This document shows, in pieces, positions 47,401 to 61,980 of a stretch of 64,000 nucleotides of DNA. The DNA is from Pseudonocardia ammonioxydans (GTDB lineage: Bacteria; Actinomycetota; Actinomycetes; Mycobacteriales; Pseudonocardiaceae). The translations under genes and the position numbers were made by a program. The stretch spans positions 1 through 64,000 of the forward strand of contig NZ_FOUY01000026.1 of the NCBI RefSeq assembly GCF_900115005.1, in the 5' to 3' direction. Position 1 is the first letter of the stretch. The number at the start of each line of letters is the position of its first letter. Below the pieces are notes generated by a model. That model was not told the origin of the DNA. It made no database searches and was given only the letters and a program-made list of their open reading frames with translations.

Positions 47401-48078
47401 GCCCTCGGCCCGCGCCGCGCGGTAGAGCGGCAGCAACCGGGTCACCAGCCGGTCGCGGCTGCCGTCGAGGTCCCACGGCACCAGCTGGGAGGCCACCGAC
47501 GACGCCTTCACCGACACGTGGTCGACGCCCGGGCGGCGCAGCAGCGCGATCGTGCGGTCCAGCCGGCGGTCCGCCTCGTCCTCCCCGAGCACGGCCTCGC
47601 CGAGCAGGTTGAGGTTCAGCCGGTGTCCCTCGGCCGCCGCGGCGGCGAGCCGGCGGTCCAGTGCGCGCCCGCCCGCGTCGACGATCAGGTGCCCGACCAG
47701 GCGGCGTAGGCGGGCCCGGGCCGCCGGGACGACGACGTGCGGCAGCGCCGGGGCGATCCGGGCGCCGGCGCGCAGCAACAGCCGGTCGGCCCCGCCGACG
47801 AACGACGGGAGGTCCGCGCCGGGTCCGGCCAGCCGGGCCAGCGCGCGGGCCGCGACCCGGTCGTCGGCGGGCCGGGCGACGCGGTCGACGAAGCGCAGCG
47901 TGAAGTCCACCCCGCCGGGGTCGTGCATCAGGGCGGCCAGCCGGGCCGTGGCGGCGTCGGCGCCCGCCGGGCCCGTGCCGGTGGCGGTGTGGGCGCTCCA
48001 GCGACGCACCCGTTCGACGGCCCGCCCGGTCAGGGCCTCGTCGAGGTCGTGCCCGGGATCGGTGGAGTGCACGCTCAC
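44449..48078 (-). CDS. putA: Bifunctional proline dehydrogenase / glutamate semialdehyde dehydrogenase
   Basis: PutA oxidises proline to glutamate in two steps. The 1209-residue protein has a proline dehydrogenase barrel (about residues 70-460; LNLLGEAVLGE, VSVKASSVASQL, VFVNLDMEEYKDL, RLVKGAN) and an aldehyde dehydrogenase domain (about 530-1040; VTPPWNFPLAIPLGG, ETSGKNALVI, and the catalytic cysteine in GHAGQKCSAASLA near 817), then a C-terminal extension of about 170 residues. There is no N-terminal DNA-binding domain. Between the domains, residues 467-500 are (GATSAT) repeats encoded by 18-bp tandem DNA repeats. GTG at 48078 is the chosen start; the frame is open upstream but without family similarity. 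Confidence 0.93.
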   Translation of the reverse strand: MSVHSTDPGHDLDEALTGRAVERVRRWSAHTATGTGPAGADAATARLAALMHDPGGVDFTLRFVDRVARPADDRVAARALARLAGPGADLPSFVGGADRLLLRAGARIAPALPHVVVPAARARLRRLVGHLIVDAGGRALDRRLAAAAAEGHRLNLNLLGEAVLGEDEADRRLDRTIALLRRPGVDHVSVKASSVASQLVPWDLDGSRDRLVTRLLPLYRAARAEGVFVNLDMEEYKDLDLTVALFTTLLSRPELRALPAGIVLQAYLPDSVAALDELGGFAARRVAAGGAPIKVRLVKGANLAMERVDAVVHDWPQAPYPTKSDVDANYVRLLDRAIGGGPDGRHPGGGHLTRGNPTAANSTAGDPARSHPLRLGVASHHLHHVALALELAAARGARAQIDVEMLQGMAPAFARAVAADLPASGPGSQLVLYTPVVHRGDFDTAVSYLVRRLEENASPEGYLYALFAGATGATSATGATSATGATSATGATSATGATGATADTAAGPESYLDRFLASVRDRDTVTDRPRRSQDRTVEAPVGEDGPLTPAGPGFRNEPDTDPARPANRAWARRAAAAAAGGTVAVPRVPVVGDPAEVDAAVHRATGSGWRDVPAADRAALLHRGARALAAARGTLLAVMLAEGGKTVAEADPEISEAIDFAAYYAERAAELAGAPFTPDRVVAVTPPWNFPLAIPLGGCLAALAAGAPALLKPSPQVRACAEAGVAALHRGGIPRDALQLLPADEDEAGRRLVTHPDVDRVVLTGASGTAALFRSWRPELNLLAETSGKNALVITPAADPDLAVADLVRSAFGHAGQKCSAASLAILVGPAATGSATGRRLRRQLVDAVRTLRPGPGSDLSTTMGPLIEEPSGKLLRALTTLEPGERWLVRPRRLGPRLWSPGVRAWVAPGSWFHRTECFGPVLGLMAARDLDEAIRWQNGTGFGLTGGLHSLDEDEIAHWCATVEVGNAYVNRHITGAVVQRQSFGGWTGSVLGPGAKPGGPNYVAQFGTWHDAPDRVPTEALNSAGPDDTSGRAADRVLAAAADLGDADRARLRRAAASDAAAWRAEFAPEHDPTGIAAEANVFRYRPLPSLTLWVGAGATRAEVLRVLLAAATAGVLVHLHGPGLPAGPVPGGVHAGPELDPRPGDRIRVLGALPRTLRVAAAHAGASLVDTPVLTDGRRELLTVLREQAVSRTRHRFGHLEPGPG
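46579..46677. repeat. 9/18-bp tandem repeats in the PutA linker
   Basis: Two 9-bp GGCTCCGGT units at 46579-46596 are followed by four 18-bp units (GGCTGAGGTGGCGCCGGT type) at 46597-46668 and a final 9-bp unit. Two 18-bp units are adjacent and identical. In frame, they encode GAT and SATGAT peptides between the two catalytic domains. Confidence 0.92.
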
Positions 48079-48305
48079 CCCGCACAGTGTGGCCCCTCCG
48101 ACGCCCGCCCGCGCGCCGTCGAGTGTCACGCAGGTGCACCCGCGCGAGCACTCACGTGACATTCGGCCGGTCGTGGCACGGGGTGCGGGCGTTTCTGCTG
48201 GACCGGGCGTCGCCGTGGCGGGATCATCGGCGGCAGCGCAGGCCGGTACCCATGACCCGGTACCACCTGTGACACAGCGCAGGAACGCGACGGAGAAGGA
48301 CCACC

Positions 48306-48896
48306 GTGAGCAGCCCACCGCCGTACCCGGGGCAGCCGGGCGACCCGCAGGACCCCCGGCACGGCTACCCGGAGCAGCCGACCCAGCAGTTCGGGCAGCA
48401 GGACCGGTTCGGGCAGGGCCAGGGTCCCTACGATCAGCAGTACGGCAGCTACCCGGGCCGCCCGTCGGCCCACGATCCGGGCGGGTACCCCGGCTACGGC
48501 GCGGGCCCCTCGCCCGCACCGCCGCGCAACGGCGCCGGCGTCGCGGCCCTGGTACTCGGCATCCTGGCCGTGCTCACCGGGTTGTTCCTGCTCGGCGGCC
48601 TGCTCGGGCTCATCGCGATCGCCCTGGGCATCGTCGGCATCACCCGGGCGTCGAAGGGCATCGCGACCAACCGGGGGGTCGCGATCGGCGGCCTGGTGCT
48701 CGGCGTGATCGGTGTCCTGATGACCGTCGCGGTGGTCGTGTTCGCGGTGTTCTCGCTGAACCTGTTCAACGACATCGACCAGGGCCAGTTCATGTCGTGC
48801 GTGCAGGACGCCGGCAGCGACCAGACCGCGCTGCAGCAGTGCCAGCGCGACCTCGAGGACCGGCTGCAGGGCGAGCTCGACCAGCTCGGCAACTGA
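48306..48896 (+). CDS. DUF4190 membrane protein with Pro/Gln/Tyr-rich N-terminus
   Basis: The 196-residue protein has a cytoplasmic disordered part (residues 1-75, rich in Pro, Gln, Gly and Tyr: PPYPGQPG, EQPTQQFGQQ), then two membrane segments (about 78-103 and 120-146) with the DUF4190 pattern GVAALVLGILAVLTG, GLIAIALGIVGITRA and GVAIGGLVLGVIGV. A short C-terminal part with two cysteines (SCVQDAG, QQCQRDL) would face outside. The GTG at 48306 has GAAGGA seven bases upstream. The function is unknown; the family is common in actinobacteria. Confidence 0.85.
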   Translation: MSSPPPYPGQPGDPQDPRHGYPEQPTQQFGQQDRFGQGQGPYDQQYGSYPGRPSAHDPGGYPGYGAGPSPAPPRNGAGVAALVLGILAVLTGLFLLGGLLGLIAIALGIVGITRASKGIATNRGVAIGGLVLGVIGVLMTVAVVVFAVFSLNLFNDIDQGQFMSCVQDAGSDQTALQQCQRDLEDRLQGELDQLGN

Positions 48897-48911: not shown

Positions 48912-50069
48912 TCAGCGATCGGCGAACGCACCGCCCGCACCGAACACCCGGGCGGCGAACCGCTCCCCCATCCGCTCGTGGGTCGCGGCGTCCGGGTGCA
49001 GGTCGTCGGGCAGCGGCAGCTCCGCGGCGTCGGCCTCGCCGTAGAGCTCCCGCCCGTCGAGGTGGGACAGGTGCGGGTCCTCGGCCACGCGGGCGGCGAG
49101 GATCGCGGCCAGCTGCTCGCGCACCACCCGCAGGGTCAGCCGGCCCGCGGCGACCTCGGCCGGGTCGCCGGTGGCGCGGAACCGCAGCGTCCCGTCGGAG
49201 ACGTCCGGCGCCAGCGGGCCCGGGGTGTCCTCGTGGATCGGGCACAGCACCGGGGACACGACGAGCAGCGGGGTGTCCGGGTGCCCGTCCCGGATGGTGT
49301 CCAGGAACCCGTGCACCGCGGGCCCGAACGCCCGCACCCGCATCAGGTCGGCGTTCACCACGTTGATCCCCAGCTTCAGGCTGATCAGGTCGGCCGGGGT
49401 GTCGCGGATCGCGCGGGCGACGAACGGGTCGAGCAGGCAGGAGCCGGAGAATCCCAGGTTGAGCAGCTCGACGCCCGCCGCGCGGGCGGCCACCGCCGCC
49501 CAGGTGGTGCTCGCCCCGGCGGCGTTCGAGCCCTGGCTGATCGAACTGCCGTGGTGCAGCCACACCCGCTGCTCCCCGGCTGGGACGGGCGCGAGGGGTG
49601 CGTCCGTGCGCAGCGCCACGACCTCGGTCAGCTCGTTGTGCGGCAGCCAGATCTCCACCAGCGCGTCCCGGCCGGGCAGCGGGAACCGGACGCTGCCCGC
49701 CGGGCCGTCGGTGATCTCCCGGGCCCCGGTCGCCGGGTCGATCATGTGCAGCCGGCCCCCGGTGGTGGCAGCGGACCCGGCCGGACGGCCGTCGACCAGC
49801 AGGTCGTAGGCCCCGTCCGGGCGCAGCGGCGCGCCGACCAGCCCGATCCGGGTGCGCACCGTCTCCAGCTCGACGACGGTCGCGGTGGTCCGGAACACCA
49901 CCCGCACGCCCGAGGGCTGCGACTCGGCCCCCGCCAGCTGCGGGTCGGTGTTGCGGGCGCGCGCGGCCGGTGGGAGCCGGTGCGGGACCAGACCGGCCGG
50001 GCCGGGAGTGGTGTCGAGTGCGCCGCGGAGCAGCTCCGGGCCGACCGGCGTCGTGATCATGGAGGGCAC
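48912..50069 (-). CDS. GDSL/SGNH-type esterase with N-terminal beta-sandwich
   Basis: The 385-residue protein has an N-terminal beta-rich part (about residues 50-180) and a SGNH hydrolase domain. Block I is WLHHGSSISQGS near residue 180 with the nucleophile serine, block III is LKLGINVVNADL near 240 with the conserved Asn, and block V is PDDLHPD near 360 with the Asp-His pair. It probably deacylates a carbohydrate or lipid; there is no signal peptide. GTG at 50069 has GGAAGG nine bases upstream, better than the ATG three codons later. Divergent from a PIG-L gene. Confidence 0.84.
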   Translation of the reverse strand: MPSMITTPVGPELLRGALDTTPGPAGLVPHRLPPAARARNTDPQLAGAESQPSGVRVVFRTTATVVELETVRTRIGLVGAPLRPDGAYDLLVDGRPAGSAATTGGRLHMIDPATGAREITDGPAGSVRFPLPGRDALVEIWLPHNELTEVVALRTDAPLAPVPAGEQRVWLHHGSSISQGSNAAGASTTWAAVAARAAGVELLNLGFSGSCLLDPFVARAIRDTPADLISLKLGINVVNADLMRVRAFGPAVHGFLDTIRDGHPDTPLLVVSPVLCPIHEDTPGPLAPDVSDGTLRFRATGDPAEVAAGRLTLRVVREQLAAILAARVAEDPHLSHLDGRELYGEADAAELPLPDDLHPDAATHERMGERFAARVFGAGGAFADR

Positions 50070-50132
50070 CCGGTGGAGCCTTCCAGACCCACCCGGCTGC
50101 CCCGCGCAGCGCCGGTGCCCGATCATTGCGGG

Positions 50133-50897
50133 GTGATCGACGACGAGCAGCGCACCGCCACCGACGACCGCAGCCACACCCGGATCGAGCGGGCACTCGT
50201 GATCGCGGCCCACCCCGACGACATCGACTTCTCCTGCAGCGGCACCGTCGCCGTCTGGTCCGACGCCGGGGTCGCGGTCACCTACTGCCTGGTGACCGAC
50301 GGCGACGCCGGCGGCTTCGACCCGGCCGTGCCCCGCTCGGAGATCGCCGGGATCCGCCGGGCCGAGCAGCGCGCCGCCGCGGCCCACGTCGGCGTCGAGG
50401 ACCTGGTGTTCCTCGGCTACCCGGACGGACGGCTGACGGTCACCCTCGAGCTGCGCCGCGACCTGGCGCGGGTGATCCGGCAGGTGCGTCCGGACCGGGT
50501 CGTCGTGCAGCGCCCGGTCCGCGACCTCGCCAGCATGTACGGCAGCCACCCGGACCACACGGCCGCCGGGGAGGCCGCGCTGTGTGCGGTGTACCCGGAC
50601 GCCCGCAACCCGTACGCGTTCCCGGAGCTGGCCGACGAGGGGTTCGCGGCGCACACCGTCGAGGAGGTGTGGGTGATCGAGGAGGCCGCCGGGGAGGACC
50701 CGTCCGCGGCCCGCGACGTCGACATCACCGCCACGTTCGACCGCAAGATGGCGGCGCTGCGGGCGCACGAGAGCCAGACCGCCCACATGACCGGGCTCGA
50801 GGACATGATCGGCCGGTGGGCGGGCGCGCAGGCGAAGCGGGCCCGGTTCCCGCACGGCGCCCTGGTCGAGTCGTTCCGGGCCCTCGACACCCGCTGA
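50133..50897 (+). CDS. PIG-L family deacetylase
   Basis: The 254-residue enzyme has the zinc motif AHPDDIDFSCSGT near residue 25, VTDGDAGG near 53, RRAEQRAAAAHVGVEDLVFLGYPDG near 75-100, and the third ligand in YGSHPDHTAAGEA near 137. PIG-L enzymes remove acetyl groups from N-acetylglucosamine conjugates, including the MshB and Mca steps of mycothiol metabolism; MshB and Mca are usually longer, so the substrate is open. GTG at 50133 has a CATTGC hexamer just upstream. Confidence 0.87.
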   Translation: MIDDEQRTATDDRSHTRIERALVIAAHPDDIDFSCSGTVAVWSDAGVAVTYCLVTDGDAGGFDPAVPRSEIAGIRRAEQRAAAAHVGVEDLVFLGYPDGRLTVTLELRRDLARVIRQVRPDRVVVQRPVRDLASMYGSHPDHTAAGEAALCAVYPDARNPYAFPELADEGFAAHTVEEVWVIEEAAGEDPSAARDVDITATFDRKMAALRAHESQTAHMTGLEDMIGRWAGAQAKRARFPHGALVESFRALDTR

Positions 50898-51026: not shown

Positions 51027-51242
51027 ATGTTCCGCGCCGCCCCGCAACGCCCGGAGCCGGCCCGCACGGTCGTCCTCGCCGCCCTGCTCATGGTGCTGCT
51101 CGCCGCCGCGACGATCACCTCGGTCCCGGCCGCACCGGTCGGTGTCACCCTGCTGCTCGCCCTCGCCGCGTTCTCGGTCCGCCCGCTGGTGGTGCTGCAC
51201 CACCGCCACGCCGCGGGCCGGGTCACCCTCAGCCGCCGCTGA
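51027..51242 (+). CDS. Small membrane protein of unknown function
   Basis: The 71-residue protein has two hydrophobic segments (about residues 14-32 and 36-55) and a basic C-terminus (HHRHAAGRVTLSRR). AGGTGG lies five bases before the ATG. Its end overlaps the convergent LAL-regulator gene by 14 bases. No family is recognised. Confidence 0.6.
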   Translation: MFRAAPQRPEPARTVVLAALLMVLLAAATITSVPAAPVGVTLLLALAAFSVRPLVVLHHRHAAGRVTLSRR

Positions 51243-54003
51243 GCCGCACCGCCAGCTCCGCCCGGGACCGGACGCCGACCTTGGTGTAGATCCGGGTCAG
51301 GTGGTACTGGATCGTCTTGACCGACACCTGCAGCTCGGCCGCGGTCTCCCGGTTGGTCCGGCCCTGGGTCACCAGCTCGGCGACCGCGCGCTCCTGCGGG
51401 GTCAGCTCGGTCGCCGCCCGTTCCCCGCGGGCACCGGCGTGCACCCCGCCCGCCTTGAGCTCGCGGTCGCAGCGGCGCACGTAGACCGTCGCCCCGAGCC
51501 CGGCGAACATCTCCCGCGCCGCGGAGAGCACCGCGTCCGCGTCGCGCCGCTTGCCGGCCCGGCGCAGCGTCAGGCCGTAGGCGAACCGCACCCGGGCCCG
51601 GTCGTAGCGGTGCGGGAGCCGGTCGGCGACCCGCAGTGCCTGCTCGAACGCCGACCACGCGGCGTCCTGCTCGCCGCGCGCGCCGAGCAGCCGGCCCCGC
51701 ACGTACCCGAGCCGGGCCAGCGTGGACCGGTGCCCGCGCTCCGCGGCCCGCCGCTCGTGCGGGATCAGGAACTCCTCGGCCCCGTCCAGGTCACCGGTCA
51801 TCACCAGCGCGTTGGCGAACACGTCGGTCCACGGCCACCAGCCCGGCTCGGCGGTGCTCCCGCCCGCGGTCCGCAGCGGTTCGAGCGCGCGCAGTACCGC
51901 CGGGTAGTCGGCCCGGGCCTCGGCCGCGTGCGCGCGGGCCAGCATCGCCGGCACCCGCGCGACCTCGTACTCGGAACCGCCCGCCTCCGCTGCCAGCGCC
52001 GCGCCCTCGGCCCGCTCGGGCTGGTCGCGCAGCGCGTGCACCTGCGCCGCGGTCCACTCCAGCAACGGGGCGACCAGCGCGATCCCGGTCCGCGCGGCGA
52101 GCTCACGGCCCTGGTCGGCGGCGCGCACCGCCCCGTCCCAGTCGCCGAGGAGGAACCGGGTCCGGGCGAGCCAGCCCAGCGCCCACAGCGAGATGCGGGA
52201 GGAGCCGCCGAGCACCGTGGTCGGGACGGCGCTCTCCAGGTCGGTGCGGGCCCGGTCGAGGTCGTCCTGCACCAGGTGCAGCCAGCCCCGGCCCATCGTG
52301 ACCCGCTGTACCTGGGCGCCCTCGCGGACCTGCTCGGACGCCGCCGCGTAGGCGGTGCGGGCCTCCTCCTGCCGTCCGGCCGCGGAGAGCCCGAGCCCGC
52401 GGATCGCCGCGGCCTCGACGCCGGGCGGGGTGTCCGGTCCGGCCAGCGCGATGGTGCGGTCCGCCCAGGTCACGAGCTCGTCGCCGCGGCCGCGGGCGAG
52501 CGCGTGCAGCACGTAGCGCTGGGCGACCTGGGCCCCGGACGCCCGGTCGTTCTCGCCGGACCCGGCCTGCTCCCAGGCGCTGCCCAGCCGGGCCGCGGCC
52601 TCGCCCGCCTGGCCGAGCAGCACGGCCAGGTACCCGAGCACCGCACCGCGCAGCGGGGTCTCCCGGGTGGCCTCGACGACCGGGACGAGCGCCTCGGCGG
52701 AGCGGCACTCCCCCGCCCCGACCAGCGCGTCCACCGCCCGCACCAGGCGTTCCTCGCGCAGCCGCCGGTCACCGGTGAGCCGGGAGGCCTCGGCGAGCAG
52801 CGAGGCGACCGTGCTCCACGCCCCGCTCGCGGCCTCCTCGGCGGCCCTGGCGTCGATCTCGGCGGCCAGCGTGTCGTCGCGGCCGGACACGGCGCCGGCC
52901 AGCAGCGTCAGCCGGCGGGTCGGGTCGTCGACGACCTCCCCGGCGCGGCGGCGCAGCGCGGCGACGACGTCGGCGCCGAGCTCGTCGAGCACCGCGGCAC
53001 GCACCATCGGGTCGGCCGGGACGGCGGCGGGGCCCCACCGGCTGCCGGCCCGCGCCACCAGCCCGGCCCGCGCGGTCTCGGCGAGCGCGGCCAGCACGCC
53101 GTCGGGGTCACCGGTCACCGCCCCGATCTCGTCGGCCTCGCCGGGCCGGTCCAGCACGGCGACCACGTCGAGCAGCGCCCGCGCCGGTTCGGACAGCGCC
53201 GCCCGGCGGTGCGCGACCGACGCGGCCACCTCGGGTGGGGCGGGCAGCCGGGCGTGCGGGTCCGCCCACACCTCGGCGGGCAGCTCGTCGAGCAGTGCCA
53301 GGACGTGGCGCGGGCGGCCCGCGGTGTGCCGGGCGAGGCGTTCCGCGGCGGGCTCGCCGAGCGGGACCCCGCGGGCGGCGGCGACGGCGGCGACCGCGCG
53401 GGAGTCGAGCGGGCGCAGCGCGACCGTGGTCCCGGCGACCCGGCGCAGCAGCTCCGCGCTGCCCGGCGGCCCGTCGGCGGGGCGGGCGGCCAGCAGCACC
53501 GTCACGGCGAGCGCCGGGTGGTGCGCGACGAGCGTGGAGAGCACCTGCAGTGACCACGGGTCGGCGTCGTGGGCGTCGTCCACGACGAGCAGCGTGCGGG
53601 CGTCGGTGGCGCAGGCCGCGGCGACCGCGGCGGCCGCGGTGAACGCAGCATCCGCGGTGGACGCGGCATCCGGCGTGGGCTCGGTGTCGTCAGGCGAGGG
53701 CGCTGTGCCGGACGGCGAGGACACTGGGCCGGACGGGAACACCGCCCCCGGGACCAGCTGGGCGAGCACCCCGCCGGCGCGGCCGGCCTCCCAGGACGCG
53801 CCGCGGGCCCGGTGCACCGGGCCGTCGTGCCCGGCGGCGACGGCGCCGACCAGCGTGGACACCCCGATCCCGGGTGGGCCGGTCACCAGGCCGGCCCGGG
53901 GCCCGTCCGCCCGCCCGCCGGTCAGCAGGCCGCGCAGCCGCGCGGCCTCGTCCGCCCGCCCGGCGAGCCCGGAGGCCCCCACCTCGACGGGGTCGTCAGC
54001 CAC
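51229..54003 (-). CDS. LuxR-family LAL-type transcriptional regulator
   Basis: The 924-residue protein has an N-terminal AAA-type ATPase (about residues 10-300), a long TPR-like helical middle and a C-terminal LuxR helix-turn-helix (about 862-922; LTPQERAVAELVTQGRTNRE, then VSVKTIQYHLTRIYTKVGV). The Walker B-like LLVVDDAHDADPW is intact, but the P-loop reads GPPGIGVST, with Val in place of the Lys that holds ATP phosphates, so nucleotide binding may be weak or lost. TACGGT lies seven bases before the GTG start, a leaderless pattern. What it controls is unknown; a small membrane protein is the nearest gene. Confidence 0.88.
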   Translation of the reverse strand: MADDPVEVGASGLAGRADEAARLRGLLTGGRADGPRAGLVTGPPGIGVSTLVGAVAAGHDGPVHRARGASWEAGRAGGVLAQLVPGAVFPSGPVSSPSGTAPSPDDTEPTPDAASTADAAFTAAAAVAAACATDARTLLVVDDAHDADPWSLQVLSTLVAHHPALAVTVLLAARPADGPPGSAELLRRVAGTTVALRPLDSRAVAAVAAARGVPLGEPAAERLARHTAGRPRHVLALLDELPAEVWADPHARLPAPPEVAASVAHRRAALSEPARALLDVVAVLDRPGEADEIGAVTGDPDGVLAALAETARAGLVARAGSRWGPAAVPADPMVRAAVLDELGADVVAALRRRAGEVVDDPTRRLTLLAGAVSGRDDTLAAEIDARAAEEAASGAWSTVASLLAEASRLTGDRRLREERLVRAVDALVGAGECRSAEALVPVVEATRETPLRGAVLGYLAVLLGQAGEAAARLGSAWEQAGSGENDRASGAQVAQRYVLHALARGRGDELVTWADRTIALAGPDTPPGVEAAAIRGLGLSAAGRQEEARTAYAAASEQVREGAQVQRVTMGRGWLHLVQDDLDRARTDLESAVPTTVLGGSSRISLWALGWLARTRFLLGDWDGAVRAADQGRELAARTGIALVAPLLEWTAAQVHALRDQPERAEGAALAAEAGGSEYEVARVPAMLARAHAAEARADYPAVLRALEPLRTAGGSTAEPGWWPWTDVFANALVMTGDLDGAEEFLIPHERRAAERGHRSTLARLGYVRGRLLGARGEQDAAWSAFEQALRVADRLPHRYDRARVRFAYGLTLRRAGKRRDADAVLSAAREMFAGLGATVYVRRCDRELKAGGVHAGARGERAATELTPQERAVAELVTQGRTNRETAAELQVSVKTIQYHLTRIYTKVGVRSRAELAVRLSGG

Positions 54004-54035: not shown

Positions 54036-54078
54036 GAGGGGCACCCTCGGGGCATCGTGTGCCCCGAGGGTCCCCCTC
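54036..54078. terminator. Hairpin terminator after the ben operon
   Basis: ACCCTCGGGGCA (54043-54054) pairs perfectly with TGCCCCGAGGGT (54060-54071) around TCGTG, and after one mismatch GAGGGG (54036-54041) pairs with CCCCTC (54073-54078). It lies 19 bases beyond the last ben stop codon on the minus strand and just upstream of the LAL-regulator promoter, which it would shield from read-through. Confidence 0.8.
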
Positions 54079-54096: not shown

Positions 54097-56871
54097 TCAG
54101 CCTTGGTCGCCGCCGGCGACCGGGAGAACGGTGCCGGTGATGTAGGACGCTTCCGGCGAGGCCAGGAACGTGATCGCCGCCGCCTGCTCGTCGAGCGTCC
54201 CGTACCGCTTCATCAGCGACGACTCGGTGGTCTGCTCGACGATCGTGGAGTACCAGTCCTGCTCCTGCTGCGACTCCGGGGCGGGCCCGCGCGGGATCCG
54301 CCGCGGCGGGGCCTCGGTGCCACCGGGTGCGGTGGCCAGTACCCGGACCCCGTGCGGGGCGAGTTCCATCGCCAGCGCCGAGGTGATCGCGTTGACGCCG
54401 CCCTTGGCCGCCGCGTACGGGACGCGGTGGAGCCCGCGGGTGGCGACCGAGGAGACGTTGAGGATGGTGCCCGCGCCCTGCTCGACCATGTGCGGTGCGA
54501 CGGCGCGGCAGGACCACAGCGTCGGCCACAACGACCGGTCGATCTCGGCGCGGATCTGCTCCGGCGGGTAGTGCTCGAACGGCTTGGCCCAGATCGTCCC
54601 GCCGACGGTGTGGATCGCGACGTCGACCCGGCCGTAGCGCTGCAGCGCCGCCGCGACGACGGACTCGGCGCCCTCCCAGTGCTCCAGGTCCGCGGTGACC
54701 GCCTCGGCGGGCACGTCGTCGGCCGCCAGGTCGCCGGCCAGCGCGGTGACCTGGTCGGACCGGTCGGCGAGGACGAGCGAGCCGCCCTCGGCCCCGACCC
54801 GGCGGGCGACCGCCTCACCGATTCCCTGGGCCGCACCGGTGACCAGCACGACCAGCCCGTCGTACCGGCCCGGGGTCACGAACCGGGGCCGCCGGGCCCG
54901 GGCCGCGTCCCGCATGGCCCGGCGCATGGTGGCCTTCGAGTTCTCCGCGTGCGAGCTGATCAGCTCCCGGGCCCGGGTCCGGTCCCCCGCCTCGATCGCG
55001 TCGACGATGTCGAGGTGGTCCTGCGCGCAGTCCGGGTGGCACCACACGGCCGAGCGCAGCGTCTCCGACATCGCACCCTTGACCCCGAGCGCCTGGTAGG
55101 CGCGCAGCAGGTGGGTGTTGCGGGTGCGGGTGAACAGGTAGTCGTGGAACGCGGCGTTGGTCTCGGTGTAGGCCTCGGCGTCGGTGAACCGCTGGGCCCC
55201 GCGGTCGACGTAGGGCACGGTCGCCTCGGCCAGCAGCCGGTAGCCGGCGACGTCGCGCGACGACAGCCTGCCCAGCACCAGCTCCAGCGCACCGAGCTCC
55301 AGCGCCTCACGGGCGTCGAAGATCGCGTCCGAGGAGTGGATGTCCGGGTGCTCCTCACCGATCTCGTAGCCGTCCTCGGACACGGTGGCGCGCGTTCCGC
55401 CCGTCGCGACGAGCGGGTCGATGTCCGACGCCGGCAGCACCGGCATCGACTGGACCGACCGCGCACCCTCCGGTGCGACCAGCAGCGGCTCGTCGTCGTC
55501 CAGCGCGCGCGGCTCGCCGGGCGAGGGCGCGAACACGCGCTGCCCGAGGATCGCGTACTCCGGTTCCCCGCTGCCGGCCGAGGCCGGTGCGCCCGCGTGC
55601 AGCGGCTCCGGCTCGCCGAAGCGGGTCAGCGGCTGCCCGAGCAGGGCGTGGCCCTCCCGGCCGCCGAGGGTGAGCAGCGCGTCCGCCCCCTCCCGGCGCG
55701 ACGACGGTGACGACGGTTGTGCCGACGACTGCTGGGCCGCGACGGCGCCGGGCCGCTCGTCCCCGGCGCCGGCCGGCACCGGCGGCACCGCGGCGGCGGG
55801 CTCGGGCTCGGCCTGCTCCCCCGGGTCGCCCGCCCCCGCGCCGGTGTCGGGCACCGCGGCGAGGGCGAACTTCTCGTAGTAGAAGCCGACCGGGTCCAGT
55901 CCCCGCTCGCGCAGGTCGCCGCGGACCGCCTCGACCATGGGCGGCGGGCCGCACAGGTAGACCGCGCCCGTGCCGTCGTGCAGGTGCTCGGGGCCGAACA
56001 GCGAGGTCACGTAGCCCTGGTTGGGGGCGGACGTGGCGGGGTCGGCCACGCAGTAGTCCCAGCTCAGGCCGGTCGCTGCGGCCAGCTCGCGCACGGTGTC
56101 CAGCTCGACGACGTCGTCGTCGGTGGTGGCGCCGTAGACCAGGTGCACGGTCCGCGAGCTGCCCTGGGCACGCAGCGTGCGCAGGATCGACAGGATCGGC
56201 GCGAGCCCCGTGCCGCCCGCGAGGAGCAGCAGCGGCGCGTCCGACTCGCGCAGGAAGAAGCTGCCGTGCGGGCCGGTGAACGCCACCTCGTCCCCGACCT
56301 GCGCGCGGTGCTCCAGCCACTCCGACATCACCCCGCCCGGGCTGAGCTTGATCAGGAAGCTCAGCTCCTTGTCGTCCGGGGCGGAGGAGAACGAGTACGA
56401 GCGGGTGATGTCGGTACCCGGGACGGCGATGTTGACGTACTGCCCGGGCAGGAACGCCAGCTTGTCCCGGTCGTCGATCTCGACGGCCAGCCGCACCGTG
56501 GTCGGCGAGAGCCGGTCGAGGCCCGTCACCCGCCCGGCGAAGGTGGCCGCGGCGGTCTTCGCGACCGCGGAAGTGGTCGGGATCTGCACGACGAGGTCCG
56601 TACGCGGCTTCGCCTGGCAGGCCAGCAGGTAGCCCGCGTCCGCCTCGTCGTCGGCCAGGGCGTCGGCGATGTAGGACCCGCGGTCGTAGTCGCCGGACTC
56701 GCAGAACGCCTTGCAGGTCCCGCACGCCCCGTCCGAGCAGTCGACCGGGATGTTGATCCGGGACCGGTAGGAGGCGTCGGCGACCGACTGGTCCTCCCGG
56801 CAGTTGATGAAGCGGGTGACACCGTCCTCGAAGGCCAGCGCGACCTGGTGGGTGGCAGGCGTCGCTGCCAT
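54097..56871 (-). CDS. Fused benzoate dioxygenase reductase (BenC), FCD sensor domain and diol dehydrogenase (BenD)
   Basis: One unbroken 924-residue frame holds three modules. Residues 1-340 are BenC: a plant-type [2Fe-2S] site (Cys45, Cys50, Cys53, Cys85), the FAD motif RSYSFSS near 157 and NADH motifs GGTGLAP (219) and CGPPPMVEA (308). Residues about 340-515 are an Ala/Pro-rich linker. Residues about 515-655 match an FCD domain, the ligand domain of GntR regulators, with metal-ligand candidates Asn572, His576, His619 and His641; no DNA-binding helix is present. Residues about 668-924 are BenD, an SDR (GAAQGIG 679, YAAAK 819-823), which turns the benzoate cis-diol into catechol. AGGAGG precedes the ATG; benB ends 10 bases upstream. 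Confidence 0.93.
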   Translation of the reverse strand: MAATPATHQVALAFEDGVTRFINCREDQSVADASYRSRINIPVDCSDGACGTCKAFCESGDYDRGSYIADALADDEADAGYLLACQAKPRTDLVVQIPTTSAVAKTAAATFAGRVTGLDRLSPTTVRLAVEIDDRDKLAFLPGQYVNIAVPGTDITRSYSFSSAPDDKELSFLIKLSPGGVMSEWLEHRAQVGDEVAFTGPHGSFFLRESDAPLLLLAGGTGLAPILSILRTLRAQGSSRTVHLVYGATTDDDVVELDTVRELAAATGLSWDYCVADPATSAPNQGYVTSLFGPEHLHDGTGAVYLCGPPPMVEAVRGDLRERGLDPVGFYYEKFALAAVPDTGAGAGDPGEQAEPEPAAAVPPVPAGAGDERPGAVAAQQSSAQPSSPSSRREGADALLTLGGREGHALLGQPLTRFGEPEPLHAGAPASAGSGEPEYAILGQRVFAPSPGEPRALDDDEPLLVAPEGARSVQSMPVLPASDIDPLVATGGTRATVSEDGYEIGEEHPDIHSSDAIFDAREALELGALELVLGRLSSRDVAGYRLLAEATVPYVDRGAQRFTDAEAYTETNAAFHDYLFTRTRNTHLLRAYQALGVKGAMSETLRSAVWCHPDCAQDHLDIVDAIEAGDRTRARELISSHAENSKATMRRAMRDAARARRPRFVTPGRYDGLVVLVTGAAQGIGEAVARRVGAEGGSLVLADRSDQVTALAGDLAADDVPAEAVTADLEHWEGAESVVAAALQRYGRVDVAIHTVGGTIWAKPFEHYPPEQIRAEIDRSLWPTLWSCRAVAPHMVEQGAGTILNVSSVATRGLHRVPYAAAKGGVNAITSALAMELAPHGVRVLATAPGGTEAPPRRIPRGPAPESQQEQDWYSTIVEQTTESSLMKRYGTLDEQAAAITFLASPEASYITGTVLPVAGGDQG

Positions 56872-56881
56872 GGCGGCCTCC

Positions 56882-57433
56882 TCAGAAGTGGTAGATGTCG
56901 ACCACGTGGTGGATGTAGTCGTTCTTGAGCACCACGGTCTTGCGGCGGATGAGCGGGCTCTCGCCCGAGAAGTCGATCGTGTAAAACGACGTGCCGTAGT
57001 ACGGGTCGACCGTCTTGTACCGGAAGTACATGGTGTGCCAGTTGAACCGGACGTCGACCAGGTCACCGCGGCGCTCGATGACCTCCACGTTGGAGATGTT
57101 GTGGCTGGTCCGCGGCTCCGGCAGCGACGTCGCCGAGGACCGCTCGGTGCGGATCCGGAAGACCCGGTCCTCCAGGCCGCCCTTGTTGCCGTAGTAGATC
57201 AGCGAGATCTCGCGCTGCGGGTCCTCGGTGAGCCGCTCGGTGTCGTCCCAGGCGGGCATCCAGTAGACGACGTCGTCGGCGTAGCACTCGAGCCAGCGCT
57301 CGAACTCGCGGTCGTCGAGGTAGCGCGCCTCGCGGTAGAGGAACTGCTCGATCATGTTCTGGGTGATCAGCTTCTCGCCGCGGACGGTGGCGGGCTGGTC
57401 GGTGCTGGTCGTGCTCGTGCTGGTGGTGGTCAC
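56882..57433 (-). CDS. benB: Benzoate 1,2-dioxygenase, small (beta) subunit
   Basis: BenB is the structural subunit of the terminal oxygenase. The 183-residue chain has the family's cone-shaped fold pattern: FLYREARYLDDREFERWLE near residue 30, YWMPAWDDTERL near 57, SHNISNVEVIER near 109 and the ending NDYIHHVVDIYHF. The GTG at 57433 has AAGGAG eight bases upstream and is preferred because the open frame further upstream overlaps benA in another frame. The first ten residues are a Ser/Thr run. It sits between benA and benCD with gaps of 29 and 10 bases. Confidence 0.93.
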   Translation of the reverse strand: MTTTSTSTTSTDQPATVRGEKLITQNMIEQFLYREARYLDDREFERWLECYADDVVYWMPAWDDTERLTEDPQREISLIYYGNKGGLEDRVFRIRTERSSATSLPEPRTSHNISNVEVIERRGDLVDVRFNWHTMYFRYKTVDPYYGTSFYTIDFSGESPLIRRKTVVLKNDYIHHVVDIYHF

Positions 57434-57462: not shown

Positions 57463-58830
57463 TCAGCGCGGGTTCTGCTCTTCGGCCTCGATCGCCGCGC
57501 GCATCACGTCGCGCCAGTACCCGTGCTGGACCGGGTAGAGGCCCTCGTCCTCGTTCTTCAGGCCGGCGGAGATGACGCCCTCCATGCCGAGTGCCGTGGC
57601 GACCTCGTCCGGGCCGGACAGCCAGTGCTGCGCGCCGCGGGACATGTCGTTCCACGGGGACGCGGTGGCCTCGAAGGTGAGCTGGCAGGCCCGGAACTCC
57701 TCGAGGTCGTCGGGGGTGGCCATGCCGGAGGCGTTGAAGAAGTCCTCGTACTGCCGGATCCGGTGCGCCCGGGCGGCGTCGCTCTCGCCCTTCGGCGCGA
57801 TGCAGTGGATCGTCACCTCGGTCTTGTTCGGCGCGATCGGCCGGAAGTGCCGGATCTGGGTGGAGAACTGGTCCATCAGGTAGACGTTCGGGTAGAGACA
57901 CAGGTTGCGGGAGCCCTTGACCATGAACTCGCCCTTGGCCTCGCCGAACTGCTCCTTCAGCTCCTCCATGGAGCTCCACAGCGGACGGTCCTGGGGGTTG
58001 GCCGCCCAGGTCCACAGGCACAGGTGCCCGTTGGGGTAGGACCAGTAGCCGCCGCCGGACTTGCCCCAGCCGCCGGCGTCGAGCGCCTTGGTGTCGTTCT
58101 TGGACTCGCCGCTGCCCCGCCGCGACGTGGTGGCCGCGTAGTTCCAGTGCAGTGCGGAGACGTGGTAACCGTCGGCGCCGTTCTCGGCCTGCACCTTCCA
58201 GTTGCCGTCGTAGGTGTAGGTCGAGGAACCGCGCAGCACCTCCAGCCCCTCCGGCGACTGGTCGACGAGCATGTCGATGACCTTGGTCGCGTCACCGAGG
58301 TGCTCGGACAGCGGCAGCACGTCCGGGTTGAGGGAGCCGAACAGGAAGCCGCGGTACTCGTCGAACCGGGCCACCTTGGTGAGGTCGTGCGAGCCGTCCT
58401 TGCCGAAGTTCTCCGGGTAGCCGGCGCCGTCGGGGTCCTTGACCTTCAGCAGGGTGCCGTCGTTGCGGAAGGTCCAGCCGTGGAACGGGCACGTGATGGT
58501 CAACCGGTTGTCGGTCTTGCGGCGGCACAGCATCGACCCGCGGTGCGCGCACGCGTTGATCATGCAGTGCAGCTCGCCCTGCTTGTCGCGAGTGATCATC
58601 ACCGGCTGCCGGCCGATGTAGGTGGTGACGTAGTCACCCGGGTTCGGGAGCTGGCTGGTGTGGGCGAGGTAGACCCAGTTCCCCTCGAAGATGTGCTTCA
58701 TCTCGAGTTCGAAGATCTCCTCGTCGGTGAAGATCCGGCGGTTGGCGCGGTAGACGCCCGCCTCCGGGTCCTCGACGACGGCGGAGTCCAGCACGCGGTG
58801 GACATGCGTGGAGTGTGCGACGGCGGTCAT
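57463..58830 (-). CDS. benA: Benzoate 1,2-dioxygenase, large (alpha) subunit
   Basis: BenA carries the catalytic centre that dihydroxylates benzoate to 1,2-dihydroxycyclohexa-3,5-diene-1-carboxylate. The 455-residue chain has the Rieske site Cys94-x-His96 and Cys114-x2-His117, and the mononuclear iron site with Asp220, His223 and His228 in the segment [13 protein letters not shown]. Length is normal for BenA. The ATG at 58830 has GGAGG seven bases upstream. It is the first gene of the operon, divergent from the LysR-cat operon. Confidence 0.94.
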
Positions 58831-59074
58831 CGACGTCCTCCTGGTCGGTCCGGATCGACCCGGGGGCCGGTCCGGGACGGCTCTGGTCCGGGAATGCCGA
58901 CAACCGTGCACCTTTCGGCCACCCTCTCGCCTCGGGCAGGTACCCAGTCCTGACCCAGGGTGGGTTGAGACGCTCAGCGTCTCGGTTCGGCTCAACTCGG
59001 TCTTTGTTCCTCTGGCCGACCCGGGATTACGCTGAATCTCGTCTCGCCGGGACGGCCACGAGGAGGTGACACGA
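58831..59074. promoter_or_regulatory. Shared ben/cat control region with LysR-type palindrome
   Basis: This 244-base gap separates the benA and lysR-cat operons. It contains GAGACGC-TCA-GCGTCTC at 58967-58983, a 7-bp inverted repeat of LysR-box size, with outer TTGAG and CTCAA arms. TTACGC at 59028-59033 with TTTGTT 18 bases upstream could be the lysR-cat promoter. One regulator bound here could act on both directions. Confidence 0.65.
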
Positions 59075-60004
59075 ATGGATCTGCGCCAGCTGCGCTACTT
59101 CGTCGCCGTGGCCGAGACCCGGCACTTCGGACGCGCCGCCGAGCGGCTGCACATGGCCCAGTCCCCGCTCTCGCAGGCCATCCGCCAGCTCGAGAGCCAG
59201 GTCGGGGCGACGCTGTTCGAGCGCACGACCCGCCGGGTCGACCTGACCCCCGCGGGCGCCTCGCTGCTCGAGGACGCCTACCGCATCCTCGCCTCGATCG
59301 ACGACGCCCGCCGCCGGGTGGAGCGGGTCGCGGCCGGCGCGGACGGCGTCGTCACCGTCGGGGCCACCGACCTGGCCGCCTACCGGCTGCTGCCGCGGCT
59401 GGCCCGGGTGACCGCCCGCCGGATGCCGGCGCTGACGCTGCGGTTCCGGGCCGGGCTGCTCACCGCGGCCCAGGAGGACGAGCTCGACGAGCGCCGCATC
59501 GACCTCGCCGTGCTGCGCCCGCCGGTGGTGCGCCCGGACGTGTCCACCCGGACCGTCGCGAAGGAACGGCTGGTGGCGGCGCTACCGGCCGGGCACCGGC
59601 TGGCCGCGCGCGACTGCGTCTCGCTCGCCGAGCTGCGCAGCGACGACTTCGTCGCCTACGGCGCCAGCGGCTCCGTGGTCGACTCGGTCGCCACGCAGGG
59701 CTGCCTGGGCGCCGGGTTCCTGCCGCACCGGCGCACCGAGGCCCGCCACACCCCGGTCCTGCTCACCCACGTCGCCGCGGGCGAGGGCGTCGCCCTGCTG
59801 CCCGAGTCGGTACGCGCGCTGGGCACCGAGGGAGTCGTCTACCTCGAGCTGGAGGAGGAGCTGCGGGTCGACCTCGCGCTGGCCTGGCGCACCGAGGACC
59901 GGTCCCCCGCACTCGTCCGCCTGCTCGACACGCTCGCCGACCACGCACACGAGCTCGACCCCACTCCCCCCACCGTCTCCGCAGCCCCTGGAGGACCGCA
60001 GTGA
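59075..60004 (+). CDS. LysR-family regulator of benzoate/catechol genes (CatR/BenM-like)
   Basis: The 309-residue protein begins [20 protein letters not shown], has the LysR helix-turn-helix through about residue 60 ([20 protein letters not shown]) and a co-inducer domain like that of CatR/CatM/BenM, which respond to cis,cis-muconate or benzoate. ATG at 59075 is eight bases after AGGAGG; a GTG at 59066 is possible but inside that site. Its stop overlaps the catB start (GTGA), so regulator and enzymes are one operon, whereas CatR-type genes are usually divergent from catB. Confidence 0.9.
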
Positions 60005-61104
60005 AGATCGTCGCGATCGAGGCGATCCCGTTCGCCGTGCCCTACCGCAAGCCGCTGCGCTTCGCCAGCGGCGAGGTGCACACCGCCGATCACGTGCTGG
60101 TCCGCGTGCACGCCGAGGACGGGGTCGTCGGCACGGCCGAGGCCCCGCCGCGCCCCTACACCTACGGCGAGACCCAGGCCTCGATCCGCGCGGTGATCGA
60201 CACCGTGTTCGCCCCGGAGCTCGTCGGGCTGTCGGTGTTCGACCGGGAGAAGATCCACGCGGTGCTCGACCGCACGATCGCCAACCCGGCCGCCAAGGCC
60301 GCGCTCGACATGGCGATCTGGGACGTGATGGGCCGCCGGCTCGGCATGCCGGTCACCGAGCTGCTCGGCGGGTGGACCGACCGGATGCGGGTATCGCACA
60401 TGGTCGGCTTCGCCCCGGACGACGTGATGGTCGCCGAGGCGCAGCGGATGCGCGACGAGCACGGCATCACCACCTTCAAGGTCAAGGTCGGCCGCCACCC
60501 GGTCTCGCTCGACACCCGGGCCTGCCGGGCGCTGCGCGAGGCGCTGGGCCCGGAGGTCGAGCTCTACGTCGACGGCAACCGCGGCTGGAGCACGGCCGAG
60601 GCCGCCCGCGCCCTCGACGAGATGGCCGACCTCGGGCTGACGCTGTCCGAGGAGCTCATCCCCGCCGACCAGGTGCTGGGGCGGCGCTGGCTGACCGGCC
60701 GCACGTCCATCCCGACGGTGGCCGACGAGTCCGCCACCCGGCCCGGCGAGGTGACCCGCGAGCTGCTCGACGGTGCCGCCACGATGGTCAGCATCAAGAC
60801 CGCGCGCACCGGTTTCACCAGCTCGCAGCGGGTGCTGCACCTCTGCGAGGGGCTCGGCGCCGAGGTCGTGATGGGCAACCAGATCGACGGCCAGCTCGGC
60901 ACCGCCTGCAGCGTCGCCTTCGGTGCCGCGCACCGGCATACCAGCACGCGCGCCGGGGAACTCTCGAACTTCCTGGACATGGCCGACGACCTGCTCGTCG
61001 AGCCGCTCCGGATCGCCGACGGGGAGCTGCGGGTCCCCACCGGCCCCGGGATCGGCGTCGAGGTCGACCCGGACAAGCTCGCGCACTACCGCACCGATTC
61101 CTGA
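60001..61104 (+). CDS. catB: Muconate cycloisomerase
   Basis: CatB cyclises cis,cis-muconate to muconolactone. The 367-residue enolase-superfamily enzyme has the KxK base pair Lys160/Lys162 in TTFKVKVG, metal ligands near Asp191 (YVDGNRGW), Glu217/218 (SEELI) and Asp242 (ADES), and Lys266 in SIKTAR. The GTG at 60001 overlaps the LysR stop. Length and residues fit muconate cycloisomerase; a chloromuconate enzyme is less likely given the neighbouring ben and cat genes. Confidence 0.92.
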   Translation: MKIVAIEAIPFAVPYRKPLRFASGEVHTADHVLVRVHAEDGVVGTAEAPPRPYTYGETQASIRAVIDTVFAPELVGLSVFDREKIHAVLDRTIANPAAKAALDMAIWDVMGRRLGMPVTELLGGWTDRMRVSHMVGFAPDDVMVAEAQRMRDEHGITTFKVKVGRHPVSLDTRACRALREALGPEVELYVDGNRGWSTAEAARALDEMADLGLTLSEELIPADQVLGRRWLTGRTSIPTVADESATRPGEVTRELLDGAATMVSIKTARTGFTSSQRVLHLCEGLGAEVVMGNQIDGQLGTACSVAFGAAHRHTSTRAGELSNFLDMADDLLVEPLRIADGELRVPTGPGIGVEVDPDKLAHYRTDS

Positions 61105-61131: not shown

Positions 61132-61980
61132 ATGAGCACCGAGACCGCCGCCACCGCCGCCGGCTCCGGCCGCAGCGCCACCGAGACGTTCCAGAAGAAG
61201 GTGCGCGAGGGCGGCGCGGCCGTCGACCACGCCCGGGTCGACGCGATCGCCAAGGACGCGCTGTCCGCGCTGCACGACGTCATCCGCAAGCACAAGCCGT
61301 CCTACGCCGAGTACGACGCGCTCAAGGCGTGGATGATCCAGGTCGGTGAGGACGGCGAGTGGCCGCTGTTCCTGGACGTGTTCATCGAGCACGTCGTCGA
61401 GGACACCGTCAACGCCGACCGCAAGGGCGCCACCGGCTCCATCGAGGGCCCGTACTACGTGCCGGACGCCCCGGAGTTCACCTCCGAGGGCACCCTCCCG
61501 ATGCGGGAGGACGAGGCCGGGACCCCGTTCCTGTTCCAGGGCACCGTGACCGATCTGGACGGCAACCCGCTCGAGGGCGCCCTGGTCGACTTCTGGCAGG
61601 CCGACGACGCGGGCTTCTACTCGCAGTTCGCCCCGGGCCTGCCGGAGTGGAACCTGCGCGGCGTCTGCCGCACCGGCGCGGACGGCACCTTCAAGATCCA
61701 CACGATCAAGCCGGCCCCGTACATGATCCCGCACGACGGCGCGACCGGCGCCTTCATCGAGGCGGCCGGCTGGCACCCGTGGCGGCCCGCCCACCTGCAC
61801 CTGAAGGTCTCCGCCCCGGGCAAGCAGCTGATCACCAGCCAGCTCTACTTCGAGGGCGGCGAGTACGTCGCCGACGACGTCGCCCAGGCGGTGAAGCCGA
61901 ACCTGGTGCTGCACCCGACCCCGGCCGAGTCCGGCTCGGGCGAGCAGGTCACCTACGACTTCGCGCTGGACCCCGCCTGA
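61132..61980 (+). CDS. catA: Catechol 1,2-dioxygenase
   Basis: CatA is the intradiol dioxygenase that opens catechol to cis,cis-muconate using Fe(III). The 282-residue chain has the N-terminal helical dimer domain, then GPYYVPDAPE near residue 107 and the iron ligands Tyr163 (GFYSQF), Tyr197 (PAPYMIP), His221 and His223 (RPAHLHL). GGGGAG lies eight bases before the ATG. Its TGA shares a base with the catC ATG. Confidence 0.95.
   Translation: MSTETAATAAGSGRSATETFQKKVREGGAAVDHARVDAIAKDALSALHDVIRKHKPSYAEYDALKAWMIQVGEDGEWPLFLDVFIEHVVEDTVNADRKGATGSIEGPYYVPDAPEFTSEGTLPMREDEAGTPFLFQGTVTDLDGNPLEGALVDFWQADDAGFYSQFAPGLPEWNLRGVCRTGADGTFKIHTIKPAPYMIPHDGATGAFIEAAGWHPWRPAHLHLKVSAPGKQLITSQLYFEGGEYVADDVAQAVKPNLVLHPTPAESGSGEQVTYDFALDPA

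Follow-up and report, generated by a model that had tools for sequence, protein, structure and literature searches.

A BenC-FCD-BenD fusion in the ben operon of Pseudonocardia ammonioxydans and its FCD-bearing relatives

A single gene of Pseudonocardia ammonioxydans encodes, in one chain, the reductase of benzoate dioxygenase (BenC), an FCD domain, and the diol dehydrogenase BenD. Gene regulators are where FCD domains are usually met; in this protein, a pocket of the regulator type is built permanently into a redox enzyme. The fusion is confirmed in the window (the whole 64,000-nt stretch of DNA that was analyzed), and the build is widespread; it has already been reported, such that the window holds a further member. 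The FCD domain also occurs on BenC proteins that lack BenD, on a BenC joined to a cytochrome P450, and is absent from some fused genes. The reading that we favor, at a probability of roughly 0.4, is that the domain is a metal-dependent acid pocket of the reductase that tunes or docks it.

RESULTS

One frame encodes BenC, FCD, and BenD

The minus strand of positions 54097 to 56871 translates as a single stop-free frame of 924 residues with a computed mass of 97.4 kDa, and the plus-strand reading of the same interval contains a stop. The original prediction of an unbroken BenC-FCD-BenD frame and of a product of roughly 97 kDa is thus borne out, with profile matches to all parts. Domains are ordered BenC, variable linker, FCD, BenD, each part scoring above its curated cut-off, and the Pfam matches comprise Fer2, FAD_binding_6, NAD_binding_1, FCD, and short-chain dehydrogenase. 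The features of the gene are as follows:

54097..56871, minus strand: BenC-FCD-BenD fusion, 924 aa, ATG start
56877..56883, minus strand: Shine-Dalgarno-like GAGGAGG overlapping the benB stop (by eye)
55861..56850, minus strand: BenC part (residues 8-337; NF040810) with 2Fe-2S, FAD, and NADH domains
55372..55863, minus strand: variable Pro/Ala/Gly-rich linker, about residues 337-500 (from low identity and pLDDT)
54943..55323, minus strand: FCD domain, residues 517-643 (Pfam PF07729)
55144..55158, minus strand: metal-site residues Asn572 (55156-55158) and His576 (55144-55146), invariant in 121/121
55015..55017, minus strand: metal-site residue His619, invariant in 121/121
54949..54951, minus strand: metal-site residue His641, invariant in 121/121
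54100..54867, minus strand: BenD part, SDR diol dehydrogenase, residues 669-924 (NF040811)

The BenC part matches the NCBIfam equivalog NF040810 over residues 8-336 (464.6 bits, cut-off 430), and the BenD part matches NF040811 over residues 669-924 (409.8 bits, cut-off 380). Short-chain dehydrogenases carry a Ser, Tyr, Lys catalytic motif; in a 30-row alignment, the corresponding Ser808, Tyr819, and Lys823 are invariant, as are Cys45, Cys50, Cys53, and Cys85 of the BenC part. Judging from these kept residues, both enzymatic parts are presumably catalytically competent. Between BenC and FCD, the predicted structure falls below a pLDDT of 50 across residues 334-514; at the other end, the last FCD helix reaches residue 659, and the BenD match begins at 669. 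The whole-chain model (pTM 0.37) leaves the position of FCD relative to BenC undefined and was too poor for domain placement.

The ATG at 56871 lies 10 nt past the benB stop, with GAGGAGG 5 nt ahead of it (by eye). An internal start that would yield a separate FCD-BenD chain (GTG at residue 511, after GAGGAG) is not supported: GTG accounts for 40 of the 55 Val codons in this column over 67 loci, seemingly an enrichment, but its share ranks only fourth among 40 Val columns, and in the window the codon at this position is ATC. The P. ammonioxydans genome contains one full-length match to the fusion and, with the full-length query, no separate second FCD of this kind, a search that a short divergent FCD could escape.

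The fusion closes a ben operon

Genes in the order benA, benB, and fusion run in the same direction, followed by a LuxR-type gene; a LysR-type gene, a catB-like gene, and catA lie upstream in the opposite direction:

57463..58791, minus strand: benA, benzoate dioxygenase large subunit (TIGR03229, 799.5 bits; start approximate)
56882..57433, minus strand: benB, benzoate dioxygenase small subunit (TIGR03232, 272.7 bits; GTG start by eye)
51229..54003, minus strand: LuxR-type regulator with an AAA ATPase domain (GerE, AAA_16), candidate ben regulator
54036..54078, no strand assigned: strong inverted repeat in the spacer that separates the fusion from the LuxR-type gene
59066..60004, plus strand: LysR-type regulator
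60001..61104, plus strand: catB, muconate cycloisomerase-like (TIGR02534, 224 bits, below the cut-off of 334.95)
61132..61980, plus strand: catA, catechol 1,2-dioxygenase (TIGR02438, 446.3 bits)

The inverted repeat (19 nt, 95% complementary) sits in a 93-nt spacer that folds with a z-score of -3.97; no T run was seen by eye, and the repeat is possibly a terminator or a processing hairpin. A few kilobases from the ben operon, a long PutA-like frame (44449-48519, minus strand) combines proline dehydrogenase and aldehyde dehydrogenase domains. A 647-residue frame (48912-50855, minus strand) matches GDSL lipases in its C-terminal third, and its N-terminal ~430 residues have no match at an E value of 1e-5.

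The FCD domain retains a complete predicted metal site

The FCD match (PF07729; E value of 5.3e-16) scores 59.6 bits against a gathering cut-off of 24.3, and the domain is modeled as an all-helical GntR-type FCD fold. Its predicted metal site follows the pattern Asp/Asn-x3-His, His, His, with spacings of 4, 43, and 22. An alignment of 121 proteins (the window plus 120 listed of 1,063 hits from 7,997 scored candidates, with one near-copy of the window among the 120) shows no variation at Asn572, His576, His619, and His641 or at Arg521 and Glu525, and the four metal-site residues are present in 80 of the 80 fetched loci (67 aligned, 13 by eye). No helix-turn-helix family appears among the 10 Pfam matches to the fusion at E values up to 1. 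Profile match and structure model agree with the FCD assignment first made from the letters alone, and the metal-site residues, their spacing, and the absence of a DNA-binding domain all stand as originally described. Going by sequence conservation, the FCD pocket is under selection where it is present.

The fusion is widespread among actinobacteria

FCD is carried by all 120 listed homologues (of 1,063 hits and 7,997 scored candidates). Genome loci were fetched for the best 80 of 142 relatives, these 80 being actinobacterial by name (e.g., Amycolatopsis, Geodermatophilus, Nocardioides, Gordonia, Mycolicibacterium, and Streptomyces); FCD is present in all 80, and BenC, FCD, and BenD share one frame in 79, the exception (L028) lying on a MAG contig of 4 kb in which BenC matches out of frame. 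A chance frame or an assembly error is ruled out by the recurrence of FCD in every listed homologue together with the single frame in 79/80 loci. Over 1,500 random pairs, the linker has a mean pairwise identity of 0.35, compared with 0.74 in BenC, 0.77 in FCD, and 0.81 in BenD. Some records of fusions bear one-sided names that mask the second activity (BenC only in Tsukamurella; dehydrogenase only in P0004, P0014, and P0016). A viral origin of the fusion was also considered and set aside, a search for close relatives having returned no confirmed relative in viral contigs. Separately, records labeled as phage (H91 to H94, "Acinetobacter phage MD-2021a"; 28 to 208 kb) carry benC/antC-like genes and seem to be bacterial contigs deposited under a phage name.

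The linker, although variable, contains a recurrent pattern: at least one strict motif of the R-x-V/I-x-G-Q type (one to three copies) occurs in 117 of 121 linkers. The pattern averages 1.68 copies per linker, versus 0.012 in shuffles of the same 121 linkers, a control that is descriptive only, as the pattern was derived from these same sequences. The four linkers without a strict motif include that of the window and its near-copy, and the window has two degenerate G-Q copies, around residues 412 and 443, the R-x-V-x-G-Q repeats being clearer in most relatives. Relatives with motifs of the R-x-V/I-x-G-Q type include L118:3268-5592, L116, L117, and P0026. The motif is missing from 102 BenC-FCD proteins and from the BenC-FCD protein of one actinobacterial genome (both described below), making it, among the sequences sampled, a companion of the BenD fusion. 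Our guess is that it serves as a docking element.

FCD occurs on BenC without BenD and with a cytochrome P450

Searching with the FCD piece recovered a second group, at 41 to 47% identity. A profile search then gave 2,518 hits, perhaps with many plain BenC proteins among them, and of the 120 listed, 102 are full-length BenC-FCD proteins of 492 to 501 residues that end after FCD; by their source tags, most are taken to derive from metagenome collections. The four BenC cysteines and the equivalents of Asn572, His576, Asp618, His619, and His641 are kept in 102/102. In the actinobacterial genome G157, the order is benA, benB, BenC-FCD (535 residues), benD, and a LuxR-type gene, and the benD start overlaps the BenC-FCD stop (TGATG). 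This genome (loci L112 and L115) is the sole case of BenC-FCD without BenD among the 4 of 396 genomes of the phylum that matched, the window's included, and there is none among the 30 genomes of the family with BenC; both screens used a strict threshold (E value of ≤1e-100), making these counts lower bounds. A protein named as coming from Pseudonocardia sp. H11422 (P0264) is also of the BenC-FCD type.

A further arrangement, BenC-FCD-cytochrome P450 (929 residues), is found in five Paraburkholderia plasmid records that are 90 to 100% alike. In the one record for which Pfam domains were computed, the BenC part scores 503 bits (cut-off 430), and the metal-site pattern Asn, His, His, His is present in FCD. 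The copy on the plasmid of Paraburkholderia sp. FT54 (L089:8001-10790) is annotated only as BenC; it is accompanied by genes for an SDR, an FAD oxidoreductase, and an AraC-type protein, and neither benA, benB, nor benD is annotated within 8 kb, in a gene table that may be incomplete. Because FCD occurs both without BenD and with a P450, it goes with the reductase, and the original placement of its role between reductase and dehydrogenase is not supported.

Some fused genes lack FCD

Within the family of the window, 30 of 150 genomes contain BenC at an E value of ≤1e-100: a single frame holds BenC-FCD-BenD in 21 (the window included), benC and benD are separate genes with no FCD nearby in 6 (the benD match of L104 being in two pieces), and BenC and BenD share one frame without FCD in 3 (G111, G130, and G041), as judged by Pfam at E values up to 0.1. 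These 3 of 24 fused genes run counter to the expectation that the fusion needs its FCD, which seems, from these sequences, to be dispensable. Their linkers retain three, three, and two R-x-V-A-G-Q motifs, respectively, and G130 has AFEAGDRPAARR directly ahead of BenD, a segment resembling the FCD end; FCD was thus probably deleted there in frame.

In the BenC tree of the family, the three genes without FCD are scattered among FCD-bearing genes, requiring three changes, but the well-supported branches force only one. The BenC-FCD row with a separate benD groups with separate BenCs in this tree. In a BenC tree built without an outgroup, 44 FCD-bearing rows split from 6 separate proteobacterial BenCs with support of 90/90. 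A single gain of FCD is neither shown nor rejected by these trees.

DISCUSSION

What the FCD domain might do

From the kept residues and the operon, the BenC part would pass electrons from NADH via FAD and the 2Fe-2S center to the BenAB dioxygenase, and the BenD part would oxidize the resulting diol to catechol, remaking NADH. The diol made by BenAB is a 2-hydroxy acid. Since the named FCD ligands are acids as well (L2HG for DhdR, D-galactonate for DgoR, and citrate for CitO, in the available accounts), we favor an in-line, metal-dependent carboxylic-acid pocket that would belong to the reductase, as opposed to a leftover transcription factor. Benzoate or its diol would be the most likely ligand, and binding would most likely tune or dock the reductase, so that NADH would be consumed when substrate is available. 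We infer both the ligand class and the effect on electron transfer; ligand binding by FCD, with an influence on the reductase, is plausible. Against this reading, the metal could be purely structural, the whole-chain model gives FCD no defined place relative to BenC, and 3/24 fused genes do without the domain. The latter genes, along with the six separate-gene genomes without FCD, imply that any benefit of FCD is conditional, and the P450 version shows that the benzoate diol cannot be the ligand in every case. What survives of the first interpretation is the triple fusion, the FCD fold, the metal-site residues, and the missing helix-turn-helix; a role between the two enzymes is not supported, nor is a necessity of the domain.

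Several other explanations address the same observations. FCD might carry a structural metal and, along with the repeats of the linker, keep reductase, BenD, and BenAB together while sensing no ligand. FCD does lie between redox partners in both BenC-FCD-BenD and BenC-FCD-P450, linker motifs persist in the three fused relatives without FCD, and the FCD of PdhR is called a dimerization domain in 5tpm; however, the full metal site is kept even though a scaffold need not have one (FadR is without it in the available text of PMC7674646), and the linker of the window has only degenerate motif copies, leaving this scaffold unlikely, if worth keeping in mind. We find it distinctly improbable that FCD captures the unstable diol leaving BenAB and gives it to the nearby BenD: fused genes without FCD exist, and the domain is also found on BenC with no BenD in the chain and with a P450, although the diol is, like the L2HG of the DhdR complex, a 2-hydroxy acid and FCD closely adjoins BenD. 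If a GntR regulator gene had instead fallen in frame into the operon, FCD might persist with little function, as its absence from 3/24 fused genes, one with an FCD-end remnant, would allow; conservation near that of the enzymes, metal ligands invariant over 80 loci, and the lack of any trace of a GntR helix-turn-helix by Pfam make such a relic very hard to credit. There is only a slight chance that FCD signals its ligand state through contact with one of the regulators, LuxR-type or LysR-type. Genes of both types border the operon in the window and in Gordonia (from the available text of the report discussed below), and the Tsukamurella fusion is flanked by LysR and a large HTH regulator, but ben operons that lack FCD also have relatives of these regulators beside them (LuxR-type at L106; both at L116 to L118), and the fusion has no DNA-binding part.

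Returning to the acid pocket, direct metabolite control over the electron supply of an oxygenase would follow if FCD senses substrate. A broader version, which we hold tentatively and consider rather unlikely, would make FCD-tailed BenC a general metabolite-gated electron-transfer module, in which the acid sensor of a regulator came to act directly on the reductase of an oxygenase, as an allosteric switch or a dock, with Rieske dioxygenase (BenC-FCD and BenC-FCD-BenD) and P450 partners, and with the R-x-V-A-G-Q linker as an added dock in most fused actinobacterial forms. Nature provides a series for comparison: separate benC and benD, BenC-FCD plus benD, BenC-FCD-BenD, and BenC-BenD without FCD.

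Comparison with known systems

The best PDB match to residues 7-336 of the fusion (E value of 8.6e-96) is 1krh, the benzoate 1,2-dioxygenase reductase BenC from Acinetobacter; unlike the fusion, it is a 338-residue chain with neither FCD nor BenD. The FCD fold is shared with the GntR/FadR-type regulators 3c7j, TM0439, DhdR, and DgoR, and 3c7j has the same metal-site residues, but all four possess an N-terminal DNA-binding part, and none was found in the fusion. For BenC-FCD-P450, a precedent exists in GcoB of GcoAB, whose domains are ordered as in BenC and which supplies a P450; GcoAB consists of two chains with a three-domain reductase, and no FCD is described in the available text (PMC6021390), in contrast with the single-chain BenC-FCD-P450. 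Rhodococcus ruber Chol-4, which grows on benzoate, has a benC listed as reductase component/diol dehydrogenase; unlike in our account of the window, a separate benD is also listed and FCD is not mentioned in the available text (PMC6498646).

The claim that no enzyme of this build had been described does not hold: a 2019 genome paper on Gordonia alkanivorans YC-RL2 (AMB Express; PMC6362181) notes, in silico and for one strain, that benC and benD are fused with an FCD domain. Among the literature on FCD enzyme fusions, as far as its available text goes, this is the one report found. We met no report of BenC-FCD with a separate benD, of BenC-FCD-P450 (FCD and P450 not having been searched jointly), of FCD losses, or of the linker motif. 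The Gordonia locus and the window have in common the fusion with FCD, benAB upstream, a LysR gene on one side, and a LuxR-type gene on the other (PMC6362181, available text). The metal site, distribution, and a test of function are absent from the available account of that report (PMC6362181), and the metal site and distribution are analyzed here. Added beyond it are the occurrence of FCD on BenC without BenD, its occurrence with a P450, and its absence from some fused genes.
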